Below are positions 29,526-59,678 of a stretch of DNA of 64,000 nt, piece by piece. This stretch comes from Pontibacter lucknowensis (GTDB taxonomy: Bacteria > Bacteroidota > Bacteroidia > Cytophagales > Hymenobacteraceae). A model generated the notes under the pieces. It worked only from the letters and a program-made list of their open reading frames with translations. It was not told where the DNA came from and made no database searches. Numbering within the stretch: the stretch's first letter is position 1; each line of letters begins with the position of its first letter. The translations under genes and the position numbers were made by a program. Where the stretch lies: contig NZ_FTNM01000001.1 in the NCBI RefSeq assembly GCF_900156415.1, positions 1,054,001-1,118,000 of the forward strand, written 5' to 3'.

Positions 29526-29541
29526 TGTCCCACGTGGAACA
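29526..29541. other. parS-like palindrome
   Basis: TGTCCCACGTGGAACA differs at two positions from the bacterial parS consensus TGTTNCACGTGAAACA, and at one from the fully symmetrical TGTTCCACGTGGAACA. It is intergenic, between the SLC13 permease stop and the microprotein. A second, perfect site is at 59663-59678. ParB would bind here to organise and segregate the chromosome (inference). Confidence 0.6.
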
Positions 29542-51056: not shown

Positions 51057-51563
51057 TTAAGATTCGTATTTCGACCTGAACTCGGCCATCAGTTGCTTAT
51101 ACGTTTCATTCTCTTTTGCCTCATCCCATTTCTCTTTGAAAATGCGTGCTGACTCCGCTTTCACCGGATCGGGATCTAACGGCAGCTGATCTCGACCATG
51201 GGCGCCGCTCTGTCCTTTTTTATCATCCGGCACAGGGCCTTTGTATTTCTGTCCAGTCCGATGGTTGGCGTATCGCCTGGAGCGGGTATAGCCCATCTGC
51301 AAAAACTTGCGGGCCATATCGGCGCCCACAAAGTCGTTCTGACGAAGGTAATCCAAAAACAGTCCGTAGATATGCTCCGATGACTCTTGTGCGATCTCAG
51401 GTGTTTTAAATCGCCAATGCGGCAGTATCTCCGACTTATACGGTTCTACCAGCAGCACCCCCTGCTCTCCTTTTCCTATACGGTACAGCTCCGGATTCTT
51501 TCTGAAATCAGTTTTTTTGAAATCCAGTTCATAGTTAAAAGCTTTCTTTTTCGCTTGTTTCAT
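51057..51563 (-). CDS. DUF4385 protein
   Basis: 168 residues from ATG at 51563 (MKQAKKKAFNYELDFKKTDF); the open frame runs on upstream, but only as a shadow of the antiporter gene. The pattern FNYELDFKKTDFRKNPELYRIGKGEQGVLLVEPYKSEILPHWRFKTPEIAQESSEHIY is the DUF4385 signature. Cytoplasmic, basic, unknown function. Its start overlaps the end of the antiporter gene by 29 bases, so the two are likely cotranscribed. Confidence 0.85.
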   Translation of the reverse strand: MKQAKKKAFNYELDFKKTDFRKNPELYRIGKGEQGVLLVEPYKSEILPHWRFKTPEIAQESSEHIYGLFLDYLRQNDFVGADMARKFLQMGYTRSRRYANHRTGQKYKGPVPDDKKGQSGAHGRDQLPLDPDPVKAESARIFKEKWDEAKENETYKQLMAEFRSKYES

Positions 51564-53613
51564 TGGTATAGCCTGTTGTCTTGAACTGGTTATCCTGGTA
51601 TACATTTGGGTGCTGCTCCGGATAAACGATAATGAAGCTGTTGTCTTTGTAGTTGCGCGACAGCACCCGCGGCACATTATCGAGCATGCCATTATACGAC
51701 ACCGTGCCTCTGCGTGCCGATATAACCACCACCATGTCATCCTTGCCTATACCTGTCTGGTTGTTTTCAAACTCCGCCATGGTTGGCCGTGGCATGTAAG
51801 TAGCGTCAATGGCGGGCTTGCTGCTCTTCACAGTACTTTTTATTTGGTTGTTTGTTCTTCTACCGGCCATAAAAACGACCTTAGCTCCCAGTTGCGTTGA
51901 CAACAGGCGAACGGCACGCATCCAGCGCAGGAAACCTCTCTCCAACTCCGCATTGGCCGGCACGATCACAACCAGGCGGCTTGTCGTATTCAGTGGCTGC
52001 ATGATCTTGCATACCAGAATCATCTGCTCTGTATTCTCAAGCAGGTTATCCAGTATGGTACCAAATATCCGATCACGGGTTGTGATCTTGGCATTCCATC
52101 CGAGCACCACCTCTGTAATCATCAGCTCTTTTATGGCCCTGAGTATACCGCTGGCAATGTTGATGTCGATCTTGGATACCAATTGCACGTCGTTGTCAGT
52201 GGCTGAGGCATGTGTTATCGCCTCCTGCAGCATTTTGTTCTTTTTGAAAATCTCCTCTTCAGCATGCTCATTATCCAGCACCACTGCCAGTGGATAGATC
52301 GGTTCGTGATAATCCGGATTCCGCAGCATCACAGAAAGATCAATCAGGTTCTCGATATTCTGAGGATTGGCGATTGGTACCAGGATACGGTCTGGCTTTT
52401 CACTTAGGTTCGGCTTACGTCTGCTCTCAATGATGGCGAGTCGCTTACCCACTTTTTCTGTCACAAAAGAACTAACCAGACAGGTGACGAGGATCAGTAC
52501 GATGGTACCGTTCAGGGCGTCTTCATTGATGATGCCGATGTTATAACCTACCAGTATCACAGCCAATGTAGCCGCTGCGTGTGCACTGCTAAGTCCGAAG
52601 ATCAGGTTACGTTGCGTACCGCTGTACCCAAATATCTTTTGAGTGATCCAGGCTGCCAGGAATTTAGTCACCAGCGCCACTACCACTATCACGCCTGCGA
52701 TAATCAACGCCTCAGGTCCCCTGAACAGCACGCTCAGATCCACGATCATACCAACATTGATCAGGAAGAAAGGGATGAAGATATTATTGCCCACAAACTC
52801 TATTCTGTTCATCAGAGCCGAGGTATGCGGTATAAGCGGGTTAAGTGCTAGTCCTGCCAGGAATGCTCCGATAATGGCTTCTACTCCTGCCAGCTCCGCC
52901 AGAAAGGCTGCCGCAAACACCAGCGTCAATACGAATATGTACTGGGCTCCTTTTTCACTTTCAATTTGCTTAAAGAACCAGCTTGCTATGCGCGGAAACA
53001 CAAACATGACGATGCCGGCAAAGATGGCCAGGGAACCTGCCAGTTTCACCCAATACCATACATCCAGATCTCCTTGTGAACTACCAGCCACTACGGCGAG
53101 CACAAGGAGTACTGCTGTATCTGTCACGATAGTACCACCTATCGTCACCGTCACTGCTTCGTTTTTACTTATACCCAGTCTACTGGCTATGGGGTAAGCG
53201 ATCAGGGTATGGGACGAAAACATACTTGAGAGCAGTATTGCTGAGAGCAACTGATAATCCATCAAGTAATAAAAGATCAGTGTTCCTGTGGTAATAGGTA
53301 TAAGAAATGTAAGCGCTCCGAAGATTAAGCTTCTGTTTCGGTTCTTTTTAAAATCGATCATATCGATTTCCAGCCCTGCCAGGAACATAATGTATAAAAG
53401 GCCTACTGTTCCGAACAGTATAATACTGGCGTCGCGCAGAAGTAGGTTAAATCCGTTTGGCCCTACTATCACACCTGCCAGGATCAAACCTACTATACCA
53501 GGTATGCGCAATTTGTTTAGTATGATGGGAGCAACCAATATGATGAGCAGCACCATCGTAAATATCAGCACCGGATCCTCAAACGGAGGAACCAGCTTTA
53601 GAAGTAATGTCAT
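51535..53613 (-). CDS. Cation:proton antiporter (CPA2/KefB-like) with C-terminal USP-like domain
   Basis: 692 residues. Twelve to thirteen transmembrane helices cover about 15-405 with the CPA2 pattern (RIPGIVGLILAGVIVGPNGFNLL, FLAGLEIDM, ELAGVEAIIGAFLAGLALNPLI). A soluble C-terminus (about 425-670) resembles universal stress protein modules rather than the TrkA-N domain of true KefB. It should exchange Na+ or K+ for protons at the inner membrane. The ATG at 53613 borders the large gene-free region that I propose as the replication origin. Confidence 0.9.
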   Translation of the reverse strand: MTLLLKLVPPFEDPVLIFTMVLLIILVAPIILNKLRIPGIVGLILAGVIVGPNGFNLLLRDASIILFGTVGLLYIMFLAGLEIDMIDFKKNRNRSLIFGALTFLIPITTGTLIFYYLMDYQLLSAILLSSMFSSHTLIAYPIASRLGISKNEAVTVTIGGTIVTDTAVLLVLAVVAGSSQGDLDVWYWVKLAGSLAIFAGIVMFVFPRIASWFFKQIESEKGAQYIFVLTLVFAAAFLAELAGVEAIIGAFLAGLALNPLIPHTSALMNRIEFVGNNIFIPFFLINVGMIVDLSVLFRGPEALIIAGVIVVVALVTKFLAAWITQKIFGYSGTQRNLIFGLSSAHAAATLAVILVGYNIGIINEDALNGTIVLILVTCLVSSFVTEKVGKRLAIIESRRKPNLSEKPDRILVPIANPQNIENLIDLSVMLRNPDYHEPIYPLAVVLDNEHAEEEIFKKNKMLQEAITHASATDNDVQLVSKIDINIASGILRAIKELMITEVVLGWNAKITTRDRIFGTILDNLLENTEQMILVCKIMQPLNTTSRLVVIVPANAELERGFLRWMRAVRLLSTQLGAKVVFMAGRRTNNQIKSTVKSSKPAIDATYMPRPTMAEFENNQTGIGKDDMVVVISARRGTVSYNGMLDNVPRVLSRNYKDNSFIIVYPEQHPNVYQDNQFKTTGYTNETSEKESF

Positions 53614-53734
53614 AGTTTTATGTTAGCGTTCACTTTTTCTCCAGATAAATATAGCGCTTTTATTTTTTTGCCTTTTCTTGCGCCCTACCTTTCCCTCCCT
53701 TTTTTGATCCTCTCTTTTCTCTTTTTGGTCTGAC

Positions 53735-55140
53735 TTATCCAGCTTTCCACATCTTACCTGACCTTATTAATTTTAATTAGATAAATTTTTAAATAAATCT
53801 TCTTTCATCATTAAGGCTGTTCATAAGTTAATAACTGTGGAACATTCTGAATTGTCCTCATTTTCATTTTATATACCCTTGCTTTGCACCTGGCTACCCA
53901 CATTTTATTTTTCTGTTAATTTTTATCTTTCAGTTACTTAACTGCCTTTTCCACTTTTGCCCATTTTGTGTGCATTACTTTTTTCACATACCTGCCCTGC
54001 CGTGGAAAAGCCTTTTTTCTATATACCTTTGTCAACCCCTTTCCACTTTTTGTGTGTTCCACAGCCCTCTGGCCCCACCTGTAGAACAAGCCCACTCTGA
54101 GTTATCAGATTTGATCCACACTTGTCCACATTTATACCCACCCTTTTTGTGGATTTCTAAACATCTTTTTTGATTCTATATTTCGGAGGCTTTAATTGGC
54201 TCTGATGGTGATCGATTTTACCTATTACGGAAGAGGAGCAGGTTTCTTTGCGAGTTCTGATGTGGTCGCTATTGTTTATGTTTCACAGGTCTCTGGTATG
54301 GCTATTTCTAACCGAAATAATTATCGAATGATGTATCCCTTGAATTAGATCCTGTAGCGGGCAGGTTAGTTATTGCCAAGCAGCTCGAAATGGAATGGAG
54401 ATTTTCAGCTTGTGCTATTCGAACTTCAGAAGAGCTACTGCACGTACTTCAATTAGGTTGGGTGTAATGTATTTGCTAAGGAATACAGCAGGTTAGTAGA
54501 GTCTCAGATCGGCACCCTATTAATCAAAGAGCATTGCTTTTCACCGCTAACTCCGCTCATACATAATTTTGCCCCCTTCTTTAAGATCAGCTTCCCCTTT
54601 TATTCAAGAGGAGTTATAGGGAACATCAGTACCAGGTATAGGTTTTCGTCTTTAGTGTTGCTCTCGAATCTACCTATCACAGATTCATATTTAGATGTAT
54701 ACTGGTAGTATTTGTATCTCCTGTGCACCCGTTAAGCAGATCTTATTTTGAATTTAACTGCTCTGTTCCGTTATACCAATGCATGAGTTTTGGTTAGATT
54801 GTATCACCAATTTTAGGTTATTCCTCATGGCTTTGGGAAGTTGTTTAGCTCTTGAAGAGTATCTAAATGAATGCGATGGTAAGTTATAATCATCGCTTGA
54901 TAGTTCGTTGAATCCGGTTTGTTATCTATATCTGAGTGATAGCTGGCAATTGTTTATTTGTCTTCAGGAGCACAAATCTGAAATCATCAGCTGGTTTTAT
55001 GACCTATTCTTATTTTCGTCTCAGTCTTTCGATCTCAGTTTCTCTTGTGTTCTTTTTATTAGCATGGGTTTCTGTGGACAATTGCTTTGATTTAGGCCCT
55101 GCAGGTAATTTGATCCCTTTTTCGTTGCTTCTTATCCACG
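53735..55140. other. Candidate chromosomal replication origin (oriC)
   Basis: The gap 53614-55206 (1.6 kb) has no convincing gene. DnaA-box-like 9-mers (consensus TTATCCACA) include TTATCCACG (55132), TGATCCACA (54112), TTGTCCACA (54122 and reverse at 55073), TGTTCCACA (54055, reverse 53836), CTTTCCACA (53743), TTTTCCACT (53947), reverse TTTTCCACG (54001) and reverse AAATCCACA (54148). An AT-only-like block at about 53764-53798 could be the unwinding element. By hand count, C exceeds G by about 137 to 59 at 53641-54180, but G exceeds C by about 201 to 175 at 54181-55140. mnmG and a perfect parS lie to the right. Strand bias of genes does not switch across the gap. Confidence 0.6.
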
Positions 55141-55171
55141 TGTTATCGGTTGAACTGTATGTATCAGATAT

Positions 55172-55203
55172 AAAAAAAGGGAGCCAAATCAGCTCCCTTT
55201 TTT
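55172..55203 (-). terminator. Terminator of the Ig-like lipoprotein gene
   Basis: AAAAAAGGGAGC pairs with GCTCCCTTTTTT around a 7-base loop, immediately past the stop codon at 55207; it ends transcription coming from mnmG before the putative origin. Confidence 0.92.
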
Positions 55204-55206
55204 ACT

Positions 55207-56817
55207 CTAGAATTCTATATTTTCTTCCATCTCCCAGTTGGCCCTTATCTCCAGTGGTTTGTCGTGAAGGTATACCTGCTCAGGTTCTCTTACCAGTTCA
55301 GGGTCTCCCCCATCCCATTTACCATTGTTGTTGGCATCCAATATCACGCGTATAAAGTAAGTGCCCGGTTCAATGCTTCGGAAATTGTAGGTCCTTGTAT
55401 TCCGCACCTGGTGCTTCACCTTGTATTGGTTATCTACTAATTGGATGATGTAGCTCTTTTGCTCTGTTTTCACTGCCCCTCTTAGACTTCCTGCTCCTCT
55501 TGCTTCCGCCACCGTTACCTGTAGGGTTGGCATTGTAAAACGTTCACCCTGTACCGGCACTATACCTACACTATCCAGCACGATGGAAGCCTGTCGGTTA
55601 TTGTTTGTCCATTTAGGCATTACAAAGCTTATCTCTGTTGCCGTGCGATCAAGTGCCACTTGTTCCGGATACGTCAGTCTGGCCACCTCTATGCTGTCAG
55701 CTAAAAGACGTATTGGAGTTTTTGATTGAATTCTAACCGGTGTTTCCAATTCAATTATGACACGCTGTCCTTCACTAATTGCCCCGTTGCTTGTATTGCC
55801 GTTTTCTTTCAGACGTGCACCCTGCACCCGCTGCGCTCTTTTGCCTTCGAACGCTATCTGTACTGTATCTACTGTTCGGTTAGCTGCTGAGTCCAGGGCC
55901 GTCAGTATAGCTCTTCCACCAGCGAAACGGCTGTCGCCAAATAGATCCACTATCTTGCCATCTGTTGATACTTTATGAATCAGAGTGTCTTTTGGTGAGT
56001 CTGCCGGTCTGGCTATAAAGCTTTCTATACCTTCATTGTAATTGGCCACAAAGCGATCTGTATACCTTTCACGACGCTGCAGGATGGGGCGTTTTGTATC
56101 TATCCCAACAGTCTGCAGCACTACTTCCTGTTCCTCGCTTGTCACGCTTATCGGCTCTGCTTTATAAGCGATTCGCTCTTCCTCCGTGTCATAAAGGGAG
56201 TTATTGTTTTTATCAGTCAGCGCATAGATTCTGTACTCACCATCCCTTATGTTTTCGAAGGTGAACTCCCCATTAGCATTGGTTTGCGTCTGGTAATATG
56301 GTCTGCTTTTCCTGATGCTGAGTGTGTCGCTTGTAGGGTATAAAGCCACCACGGCTTCGTTCTCCGGTTCCTGTGTAAGCAGTCTTACTACTTGCCCGCT
56401 TACTCTGCTCGAGTCTATGAAACTGCCTGTGCTAAACGTTAATACCAATCCTTCTGCAATGTTTTTTTCCGTGATATCCTGTATGCCTTTTCTGAAGTTT
56501 AAGGTATAGGTCGTGTTTTCCTCGAAGGGTTGCTCAAATACTAACTCCATCCTGGTTCGGCTCGATCGCACCTGATATTTGTTGTCGGTAAACGGTGTGA
56601 TCAGGAGTTCTTTCTGCAGGTTGTTTTGCTGAACCTCTTCATTAAAATCAAGCGTGATAGTACGGGTACTTACATTCAGTTCCTGCGACTTCGGATTGCT
56701 ATTCAGAAGCTCCGGTGCGTCTTCGTCTTTAGGTCCTCCTTCCGGGTTGTTTATACTAGCGCATGAAGAGATGCTAATTACTGAAGCTGCAAGTAAAAGG
56801 CTGTTGACAATTTTCAT
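55207..56817 (-). CDS. Lipoprotein with N-terminal Ig-like (Big_5) domain
   Basis: 536 residues with a lipobox (SVISISSC, mature Cys19). The first ~110 mature residues form a Big_5-like bacterial Ig domain (STRTITLDFNEEVQQNNLQKELLITPF, TYTLNFRKGIQDI). Later segments include a carboxypeptidase-regulatory/CNA-B-like beta sandwich (TNANGEFTFENIRDGEYRIYALTDKNNNSLYD) and a similar C-terminal module (PGTYFIRVILDANNNGKWDGGD). It is a conserved Bacteroidota surface or periplasmic lipoprotein of unknown role, here last in the mnmG operon before the origin gap. Confidence 0.82.
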   Translation of the reverse strand: MKIVNSLLLAASVISISSCASINNPEGGPKDEDAPELLNSNPKSQELNVSTRTITLDFNEEVQQNNLQKELLITPFTDNKYQVRSSRTRMELVFEQPFEENTTYTLNFRKGIQDITEKNIAEGLVLTFSTGSFIDSSRVSGQVVRLLTQEPENEAVVALYPTSDTLSIRKSRPYYQTQTNANGEFTFENIRDGEYRIYALTDKNNNSLYDTEEERIAYKAEPISVTSEEQEVVLQTVGIDTKRPILQRRERYTDRFVANYNEGIESFIARPADSPKDTLIHKVSTDGKIVDLFGDSRFAGGRAILTALDSAANRTVDTVQIAFEGKRAQRVQGARLKENGNTSNGAISEGQRVIIELETPVRIQSKTPIRLLADSIEVARLTYPEQVALDRTATEISFVMPKWTNNNRQASIVLDSVGIVPVQGERFTMPTLQVTVAEARGAGSLRGAVKTEQKSYIIQLVDNQYKVKHQVRNTRTYNFRSIEPGTYFIRVILDANNNGKWDGGDPELVREPEQVYLHDKPLEIRANWEMEENIEF

Positions 56818-57781: not shown

Positions 57782-59644
57782 TTATTTTCCAAGGTATACC
57801 ATTAGTACAGATATGTCAGCAGGTGAAACTCCACTGATACGTGATGCCTGGCCGATTGTCTCAGGCTGTATACGTAGCAATTTCTCACGCGCCTCAGCTG
57901 ACAAGGCAGGTATGTTGCGGTAGTCTATTTTCTCTTTGATATTATAGTTTTCGAGTTCACCCATTTTGGCAGCCATGGTGTGCTCCTTCTCAATGTAGCT
58001 TTCGTACTTCACGGCTATCTCAGCTTGCTCTACACTGTCAGCTTTGAACTTGCTCAGGTACTCTGCTACGGCTGGCACGGCCTCAGCGATATGCTTGATC
58101 TCGATGTTTGGACGTTTGATTAACTGACCTGCACGCTGCTTTTCTACAATTGGTGCTGAGCCCATTTGCTCCAGCATGCTGTTGATATCACCCGGCTCAA
58201 TCGGTTTGTTACTCAGGTAAGCGATGATTTCAGCCGTTTCTTTGATCTTCTTATCCACAGCAGCCAAACGGCTTTCGTCAGCCAATCCAAGCTCGTAGCC
58301 TAGCTTTGTAAGGCGGATATCAGCATTGTCCTGACGTAGCAGGATACGGTGCTCTGCTCTGGAAGTAAACATACGGTATGGCTCATCGGTACCCTTGTTT
58401 ACCAGGTCGTCGATCAATACGCCGATGTAAGCTTCTGATCGCTTTAGAATAAACGGCGCTTTTTCGTTTATCTTGTTATGCGCATTTATACCTGCCATTA
58501 ATCCTTGGCAAGCTGCTTCTTCGTATCCCGTTGTTCCGTTGATCTGGCCAGCAAAGTACAGGTTCTGCACCAGCTTTGTTTCCAGCGTTAGGCTCAGCTG
58601 CGTTGGCGGGAAGAAGTCGTATTCTATTGCATAACCAGGGCGGAACATTTTGGCGTTCTCAAATCCCACGATCTTACGCAGTGCTTTCAGCTGCACATCT
58701 TCCGGCAGTGAGCTGGAGAAACCGTTCACGTATACCTCTACTGTATTCCAGCCTTCCGGTTCCACAAAGATCTGGTGACGGTCACGATCGGCAAAGCGAT
58801 TAATCTTGTCTTCAATAGATGGGCAGTAACGCGGGCCCAATCCCTGGATACGACCCTGGAACATAGGCGACTTTTCGAAGCCAGTTTTAAGGATTTCGTG
58901 TACGTCTGAATTTGTATAAGTGATATAGCAGCTACGTTGCTTAGCCAACGGCGTGGTTTCAGTATAAGAGAACTTTGAAGGATTCTCGTCGCCGAATTGC
59001 TCTTCCATACGGCTGTAGTCGAGCGAGCGACCATCAACACGCGGAGGTGTTCCGGTCTTCATGCGGCCTGCCTCAAAGCCCAGTTGAATGAGTTGCTCTG
59101 TTATGCCTTTTGCTGATTTTTCTGCTGAGCGACCACCACCCATCTGTTTTTCGCCGATGTGGATAATGCCATTCAAAAATGTGCCGTTCGTTAAAATTAC
59201 GGCCTTTCCACGTATAGTTATCCCCAGGCTAGTGCGTACACCAACGGCTCTGCCATCCTCTACTTCTATACCTGTCACCATCTCTTGCCAGAAGTCAACG
59301 TTCTCAGTTTGCTCCAGTGTCAGTCGCCAGGCTTCGGCAAATCGCATGCGGTCACTCTGTGCACGAGGGCTCCACATGGCAGGTCCTTTTGATTTGTTCA
59401 GCATGCGGAACTGGATCATGGTCTCGTCGGTAATGATACCGCTCATACCACCCAGCGCATCAACTTCACGCACAATCTGTCCTTTTGCTACGCCACCCAT
59501 AGCCGGGTTGCAGGACATCTGCGCAATGGTATTCATATTCATGGTCGCCAAAAGGACTTTAGAGCCCATTTTGGCAGCTGCGGCAGCGGCTTCACAGCCT
59601 GCATGGCCCGCACCTACAACTATGATATCGTATTCTGGAAACAT
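57782..59644 (-). CDS. mnmG: tRNA uridine-5-carboxymethylaminomethyl(34) synthesis protein MnmG
   Basis: 620 residues. FAD-binding [15 protein letters not shown] at the N-terminus, [15 protein letters not shown] and the [24 protein letters not shown] block are diagnostic. With MnmE it installs the cmnm5 group on wobble U34 of tRNAs. In many bacteria this gene (gidA) flanks the replication origin. Here a perfect parS lies 18 bases upstream of its ATG and a candidate oriC lies downstream, beyond the methyltransferase and lipoprotein genes. It follows ybeY after 67 bases. Confidence 0.97.
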
Positions 59645-59662: not shown

Positions 59663-59678
59663 TGTTTCACGTGAAACA
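59663..59678. other. parS centromere site
   Basis: TGTTTCACGTGAAACA matches the ParB-binding consensus TGTTNCACGTGAAACA at every position and is extended to the 20-base palindrome GATGTTTCACGTGAAACATC (59661-59680). It lies between mnmG and ybeY. ParB spreads from such sites to load SMC and move origins apart. No parAB genes are visible. The position, next to a gidA-type locus, is classic for origin-proximal parS. Confidence 0.88.

Follow-up and report, generated by a model that had tools for sequence, protein, structure and literature searches.

In the present study, positions 53735 to 54165 of a 64,000-nucleotide stretch of Pontibacter lucknowensis DNA (the window; C5:1054001-1118000, from a 19-contig assembly of 4.47 Mb) were recognised, as judged from the sequence, as very probably the oriC of this Pontibacter chromosome. 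The original prediction had placed the origin in the whole gene-free 1.6-kb spacer. An origin here was supported by DnaA-box enrichment, by conservation in 37 of 37 Pontibacter genomes and by a skew switch and a parS site nearby, but its extent was narrowed. Only 53735-54165 is both box-enriched and conserved, the right-hand kilobase being variable, and the 1.6-kb spacer as a whole was therefore rejected as the origin. Overall, the region combines a box cluster, an AT-rich element, a skew minimum 10-30 kb away, a single occurrence per chromosome and a nearby parS, while dnaA does not lie close to it. Several observations were counted against this reading: the skew switch is displaced to one side and does not place the related module in every genome, the core of this genome holds no exact box, and other sites are denser in boxes with at most one mismatch.

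Gene context and DnaA boxes of the spacer

The left neighbour of the spacer is a CPA2-type antiporter gene (Na+/H+ exchanger family; 51535-53613, minus strand), and the right neighbour encodes a Big_5/DUF2141 protein (55207-56817, minus strand), relatives of which adjoin the module described below in other families. This protein is 77-97% identical to nine Pontibacter records, a tenth record being distant (33%). Beyond it follow a methyltransferase-like gene, mnmG (gidA; 57782-59644, minus strand; TIGR00136, E 4.9e-255) and ybeY. A parS site, TGTTTCACGTGAAACA, is located at 59663-59678, about 6 kb from the core. In addition, a near-perfect parS palindrome, TGTCCCACGTGGAACA, was seen at 29526-29541, 24 kb to the left of the core. 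A perfect 12-bp inverted repeat at 55173-55203 (minus strand), absent from the terminator-scan list, looks like a terminator at the end of the minus-strand gene. That the spacer contains no credible gene was borne out, as the longest stop-free frame within 54181-55206 has 90 codons; a 139-codon ORF on the plus strand (54936-55355) runs antisense into the next gene. No tRNA was found in the window.

Since the antiporter gene starts at 53613 and the core is directly upstream of it, the conserved sequence might be a regulatory leader or promoter of that gene, or a noncoding RNA, conserved as such. The window gave no Rfam match above the gathering score, by which an RNA gene was rejected, and promoter-like sites were at chance level (4 versus 4.3 expected, in a scan limited to the sigma-70 type), by which a sigma-70 promoter was rejected. 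Moreover, the frames left of the module differ in other genera and families, as judged from translated frames. We consider a leader, promoter or RNA very improbable.

For the counting of DnaA boxes, the consensus was TTATCCACA and a near box was defined by at most 2 mismatches. The exact TTATCCACA does not occur in 53614-55206. The cluster of about twelve near boxes that had been claimed, mostly at 53.7-54.2 kb, amounted to 16 in 53614-54180, far above the 2.45 +/- 1.5 expected from dinucleotide-preserving shuffles, none of which (0/500) reached the count. In 54181-55206 there was no excess, with 3 near boxes against about 3.5 expected and 349 of 500 shuffles reaching the count. The two further boxes that had been placed near 55.1 kb are real; these one-mismatch boxes, at 55073 and 55132, exceed the 0.25 expected (9/500 shuffles). 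The left part of the spacer is T- and C-rich, which favours CCAC-like words, and a chance cluster in a pyrimidine-rich spacer could be imagined on this ground. The shuffles, which yield 2.45 boxes where 16 are present, and the box enrichment in 37/37 species make such an accident hardly credible.

The 500-bp interval at C5:1107651 contained 15 near boxes and was the top of 8990 overlapping intervals read in the genome (mean 1.37, sd 1.26, next best 10). Whether equal box density exists elsewhere was thus answered differently at the two levels of stringency. At most 2 mismatches being allowed, no other interval reached 15; with at most 1 mismatch, four places were denser per 500 bp than this interval, which has 2 (C10:105351 with 6, C5:1202401 with 5, C5:808901 with 4 and C5:1087851 with 3). 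In the whole genome, 43 exact boxes were present (18 forward, 25 reverse), compared with 23 for the word read backwards.

Apart from the core, further spots dense in boxes with at most one mismatch were observed at C5:808901-809400, C5:1202401-1202900 and C5:1087851-1088350. The places at C5:808.9 kb and C5:1202.4 kb were rejected as origins because, in the stretches sampled, the skew has one sign on both sides of each. The place at C10:105.35-105.85 kb was likewise rejected, as it lies upstream of mraZ in a 19-kb stretch with a mean skew of +0.063. The array there (C10:105766-105812) precedes the MraZ domain by 100-150 bp, and mraZ heads the cluster of division and cell-wall genes. A search over 48 genomes with MraZ was used, from which 30 loci were read out, 23 from Pontibacter and 7 from outside the genus. 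In all 23 Pontibacter loci, a 50-bp interval before mraZ contained two or more exact boxes together with a box of one mismatch, the spacing being fixed, and 21 of these loci had three exact boxes; such an array was found in none of the 7 loci outside the genus, one of which has a single exact box. This suggests that DnaA may control the division cluster in Pontibacter.

Architecture and conservation of the core

The core is a 430-bp noncoding block (53735-54165) conserved in 37/37 Pontibacter genomes, and conservation drops after about 54160. It begins with a putative DUE module (53738-53842, plus strand), composed of a left DnaA-like site, an AT-rich stretch and right DnaA-like sites, and used as the basis of the model R1. 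The left DnaA-like box, CTTTCCACA (53743-53751, plus strand), points right, into the AT-rich stretch; seven of its nine bases are invariant in 37 species and the other two are at least 90% conserved. The AT-rich stretch itself (53764-53798) is the putative DNA unwinding element, with 86-97% A+T in 37/37 species, the remainder of the core averaging 62%. It had been described as AT-only, which is not exact, since a G at 53780 separates the runs 53764-53779 and 53781-53798. The right edge, ATTAAGGCTGTTCATAAGTTAATAAC (53810-53835), carries on the minus strand two DnaA-like sites that span 53818-53835 and point left, into the AT-rich stretch. Eleven of its 26 bases are invariant in 37 species, and it is recognisable in other families. 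The inward facing of these bracketing sites was read from the sequence.

Adjoining the right edge is a minus-strand DnaA-like box (plus-strand TGTGGAACA, 53836-53844) that is shared by close relatives only, TGTGGAA being present in 10/37 rows of alignment A1. It is followed by plus-strand DnaA-like boxes at 53894-53902 (CTACCCACA), 53947-53955 (TTTTCCACT) and 53980-53988 (TTTTTCACA) and by a minus-strand box at 54001-54009 (plus-strand CGTGGAAAA). The plus-strand word CTTTCCACT at 54039-54047 (repeat D4) has 3 mismatches to the consensus, yet is strongly conserved, and the plus-strand box TGTTCCACA at 54055-54063 is not kept through the genus. Three plus-strand boxes stand in a row at 54112-54140, TGATCCACA, TTGTCCACA and TTATACCCA, the middle one being the exact TTATCCACA in 13/37 species. 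A minus-strand box (plus-strand TGTGGATTT, 54148-54156) forms the right end of the core. The basal unwinding system also includes the DnaA-trio, a repeated trinucleotide next to a DnaA box. By eye, no clear trinucleotide run was seen near the core boxes, and a literature search for the DnaA-trio together with Bacteroidetes found none.

Outside the conserved core, the sequence from 54181 to 55172 is a variable spacer. The nearest relative, G005, retains both one-mismatch boxes (55073 and 55132) and is about 60% identical over 54400-55000. The length also varies: the distance corresponding to 53560-55170 is 1610 here, about 680 in G018 and G027, and 2796 in G022 when measured to a slightly different anchor.

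The core was found beside the antiporter gene in 37/37 Pontibacter genomes, our own (G000) included. A DNA search over 59 genomes, again including our own, gave a match in 33/36 congeners. For the remaining three, the core was reached by way of the antiporter protein (G014, G025) or by reading the region itself (G001). Outside the genus this search gave two short matches, which were given no weight. Each of the 37 cores contained 9-16 near boxes against a shuffle mean of 1.5-2.75, with 0/100 shuffles reaching the count in any of them; in sum, there were 474 near boxes versus 77 expected. The mean top-base frequency was 0.80 in near-box columns and 0.66 elsewhere in the core, a difference reached by 0/430 rotations, where boxes defined in one species bias the result to columns in which the others resemble that species, and the rotation control preserves relatedness but not the choice of the box-defining species.

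Position on the chromosome

The skew was obtained from sampled stretches and not as a whole-genome curve; for our own genome these were contig C5 and one 19-kb stretch elsewhere. On contig C5 the skew was negative in 16/16 segments to the left of 1.118 Mb and positive in 7/7 to the right, and the minimum within a gap-free read of 184 kb was at C5:1119970, at a distance of 12 kb from the core. G031, a complete genome of 4.34 Mb, showed a change of skew from negative to positive between the stretch with the element and the next one. The minimum there (G031:C1:3320108) is 14 kb from the core on the mnmG side, and the skew turns back roughly half-way round the circle, 2.2-2.4 Mb left of the element; three of 25 stretches had the opposite sign to that of their arm (+0.017, +0.032, -0.009). 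In the complete genome G022 (5.46 Mb) the element is reversed, the switch is 10-30 kb away, also on the mnmG side, and the skew falls to zero about 2.8 Mb from the element. With regard to a skew minimum elsewhere, then, the minimum is near the core in its own contig and in two complete congeners, but is offset by 12-14 kb or 10-30 kb.

In other genomes with the module, the switch was 10-110 kb from it (G112 and G070) or the skew was compatible with its position (G356); there was no clear switch at the module in G082 and G073, and the skew of G506 was irregular. For the composition switch that had been noted near 54.18 kb, the hand counts of 137 C/59 G followed by 175 C/201 G were close to ours, which gave 141 C/62 G for 53614-54180 and 186 C/213 G for 54181-55206. 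This switch marks only the end of the pyrimidine-rich core and not the genomic skew minimum, which is about 12 kb to its right.

In all five genomes in which it could be placed (G000, G031, G022, G112 and G070), the skew switch is displaced towards the right-hand gene, the side on which the box array also lies. Because of this displacement, our confidence in oriC was set slightly lower than it would otherwise have been. The same displacement, together with the mostly weak boxes of this genome, favours another explanation, namely that the core is a DnaA-titrating or regulatory site (datA- or DARS-like) near the origin and that the true origin is nearer the skew minimum at C5:1.120 Mb. Against this, the 264 kb around the core had no comparable cluster (15 near boxes versus 8 in the next best 500 bp with at most 2 mismatches, although two places within the 264 kb have more boxes with at most 1 mismatch), and the local skew could be shifted by the coding bias of genes on the minus strand in the interval from the core to 1.118 Mb. 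In addition, datA and DARS sites are not known to contain an AT-rich opening element bracketed by boxes. A titrating or regulatory site is thus regarded as improbable, and the oriC reading is preferred.

The perfect parS core GTTTCACGTGAAAC was present once in each of 7/7 genomes, about 5-7 kb from the element, in line with the expected proximity of parS to an origin. The gene dnaA was 0.70-1.05 Mb from the element in 7/7 genomes, three of the seven distances being measured across the end of a contig on the assumption that it is circular. An origin close to dnaA is common in many phyla and is not a defining feature in Bacteroidota. The DnaA of this genome has GGRDHSTV in its C-terminal part, which we take to be the DnaA-box-binding signature. 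The exact TTATCCACA was also seen at C5:298912-298920, some 150 bp ahead of dnaA (minus strand, C5:297385-298764), and this fits self-regulation, as expected. The absence of dnaA near the spacer, which the original prediction had held against an origin, was confirmed; it is normal for the phylum, since a large distance between oriC and dnaA is stated to be common in Bacteroidetes (PMC4755523).

A related module beyond the genus

The model R1 is a sequence-only model of 53738-53842 from 37 Pontibacter species, applied with a cut-off of E <= 0.001. It matched 86/291 genomes of the order, with exactly one match each, including 6 of the genus itself (G000 among them) and 39 others of the same family; four of the 86 had been in the model (G000, G019, G025 and G030). 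No genome of the same family was among the 20 non-matching genomes listed, a further 185 being non-matching. An alignment of 46 matches (A2), eight of them additional matches to sources already represented, was set aside. In its place a wider alignment (A3) was made with one sequence each from 35/38 loci of several families (all but L144, L149 and L155), with a number of ends extended by hand. A3 shows a TTTCCACA-like site, an AT-rich stretch and then ATTAGGGCTGTTNATAAGTGGATAA, which on the minus strand consists of two DnaA-like sites facing back into the AT-rich stretch.

From these 35 sequences the model R2 was constructed, and the identical sequences read backwards served as the reversed control, R3. 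R2 matched 127/291 genomes of the order, 29 of which were in the model. More than one match was obtained in 10 of the 127; in nine of these the matches were the two strands of one place, as a nearly symmetric module would be expected to give. Thus 126/127 genomes have a single place, and G044 has three. In the phylum, R2 matched 67/395 genomes (three in the model) versus 10/395 for R3, and outside the order the numbers were 56 and 10. Since the control also finds matches, some low-score matches of R2 must be accidental, G352 and G576 being hit by both models. The best R3 match reached 24.4 bits, a score that R2 exceeded in 22 genomes outside the order. The other 328/395 phylum genomes had no R2 match, and in its modelled form the module is by no means universal.

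Gene content was read at seven loci of other genera and families. A gene resembling the right-hand neighbour lies to the right of the module in six of them (L146, L148, L153, L158, L162 and L168), and in L147 no frame resembling the right-hand neighbour was found within the stretch read. Five of the six neighbours had a DUF2141 match (E <= 0.001), two above the Pfam cut-off, and that of L148 had none; three are homologous to the protein in the window (L168, E 1e-22; L162, 1e-22; L148, 2e-32).

The surroundings of the module were also scanned for boxes in ten genomes, over 20 kb each except for 110 kb in G031 and 264 kb in G000. With at most 2 mismatches, the densest 500-bp interval overlapped or adjoined the module in 10/10 neighbourhoods, a result favoured by the fact that some of the boxes counted belong to the module itself. 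With at most 1 mismatch, the densest interval adjoined it in 7/10, the exceptions being G000, G031 and G070. Among the ten, G356, of the same class, and G506, of another class, are outside the order and absent from both models. Near the module, 11 boxes with no more than one mismatch were counted in G082. An exceptionally dense, origin-like cluster was observed in G073 (L190, about 10.0-10.6 kb), where 500 bp held 9 exact boxes and as many as 17 boxes when one mismatch was allowed.

From this arrangement, a course of initiation may be proposed for the Pontibacter oriC. DnaA would occupy the box array at 53894-54156, which consists mostly of weak sites, and also the bracketing sites, that is, CTTTCCACA pointing right and the two minus-strand sites at 53818-53835, which point left. 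Once assembled, DnaA would open 53764-53798, helicases would be loaded on the two strands for bidirectional replication, and the new origins would be segregated by ParB bound at parS, 6 kb away. More broadly, and with somewhat more doubt than conviction, we put forward that the origins of much of Bacteroidota may descend from one ancestral oriC with a nearly symmetric opening module of about 100 bp, in which inward-facing DnaA sites flank AT-rich DNA and ATTAGGGCTGTTNATAAGTGGATAA forms the right edge. DnaA filaments would enter its AT-rich DNA from both sides, one per strand, each placing one helicase, and the module would have been kept while the gene neighbours and dnaA moved away. The guiding of one helicase by each side is offered as a proposal only.

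The oriC of E. coli and B. subtilis represents the type with DnaA boxes and an AT-rich DUE, and in the usual arrangement the AT-rich stretch is at one edge. The Pontibacter core shares with this type the DnaA-like boxes, the adjoining AT-rich stretch, the lack of genes and the nearby skew switch and parS. It differs in not lying beside dnaA, in that all boxes of our genome are inexact, and in that its AT-rich stretch is bracketed by inward-facing DnaA-like sites. Cytophaga belongs to the order Cytophagales, and oriC plasmids of Cytophaga hutchinsonii were reportedly described by Xu et al. in 2012. The likeness to that species, by description and not by sequence, is in the shared order and in the use of its oriC on plasmids, an oriC plasmid having an entry in a table of PMC5891637. 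For Prevotella intermedia, the oriC was predicted by Ori-Finder, and there and in other Bacteroidetes (DoriC) it is described as a site of multiple DnaA boxes that coincides with a GC-skew transition and lies far from dnaA (PMC4755523). Our core is similar in these three respects, again by description and not by sequence, and the part of that report considered here mentions no shared sequence module.

A literature search of titles and abstract starts, in which subscription journals were mostly uncovered and DoriC was outside, found neither a Pontibacter or Hymenobacter origin nor a shared opening module of Bacteroidota. Taken alone, the spacer being an origin is an expected kind of result and the element is an ordinary one. 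What appears to be new here is a module that, by sequence comparison, is shared across families and possibly across the phylum. Origins in Bacteroidetes can be hard to place, because dnaA is commonly far away (PMC4755523) and the skew was uninformative in some of the genomes read here. A module marking the densest DnaA-box cluster would locate oriC from sequence in the genomes that carry it. It would also supply origin fragments for replicating vectors, and it makes a two-sided mechanism of origin opening testable.
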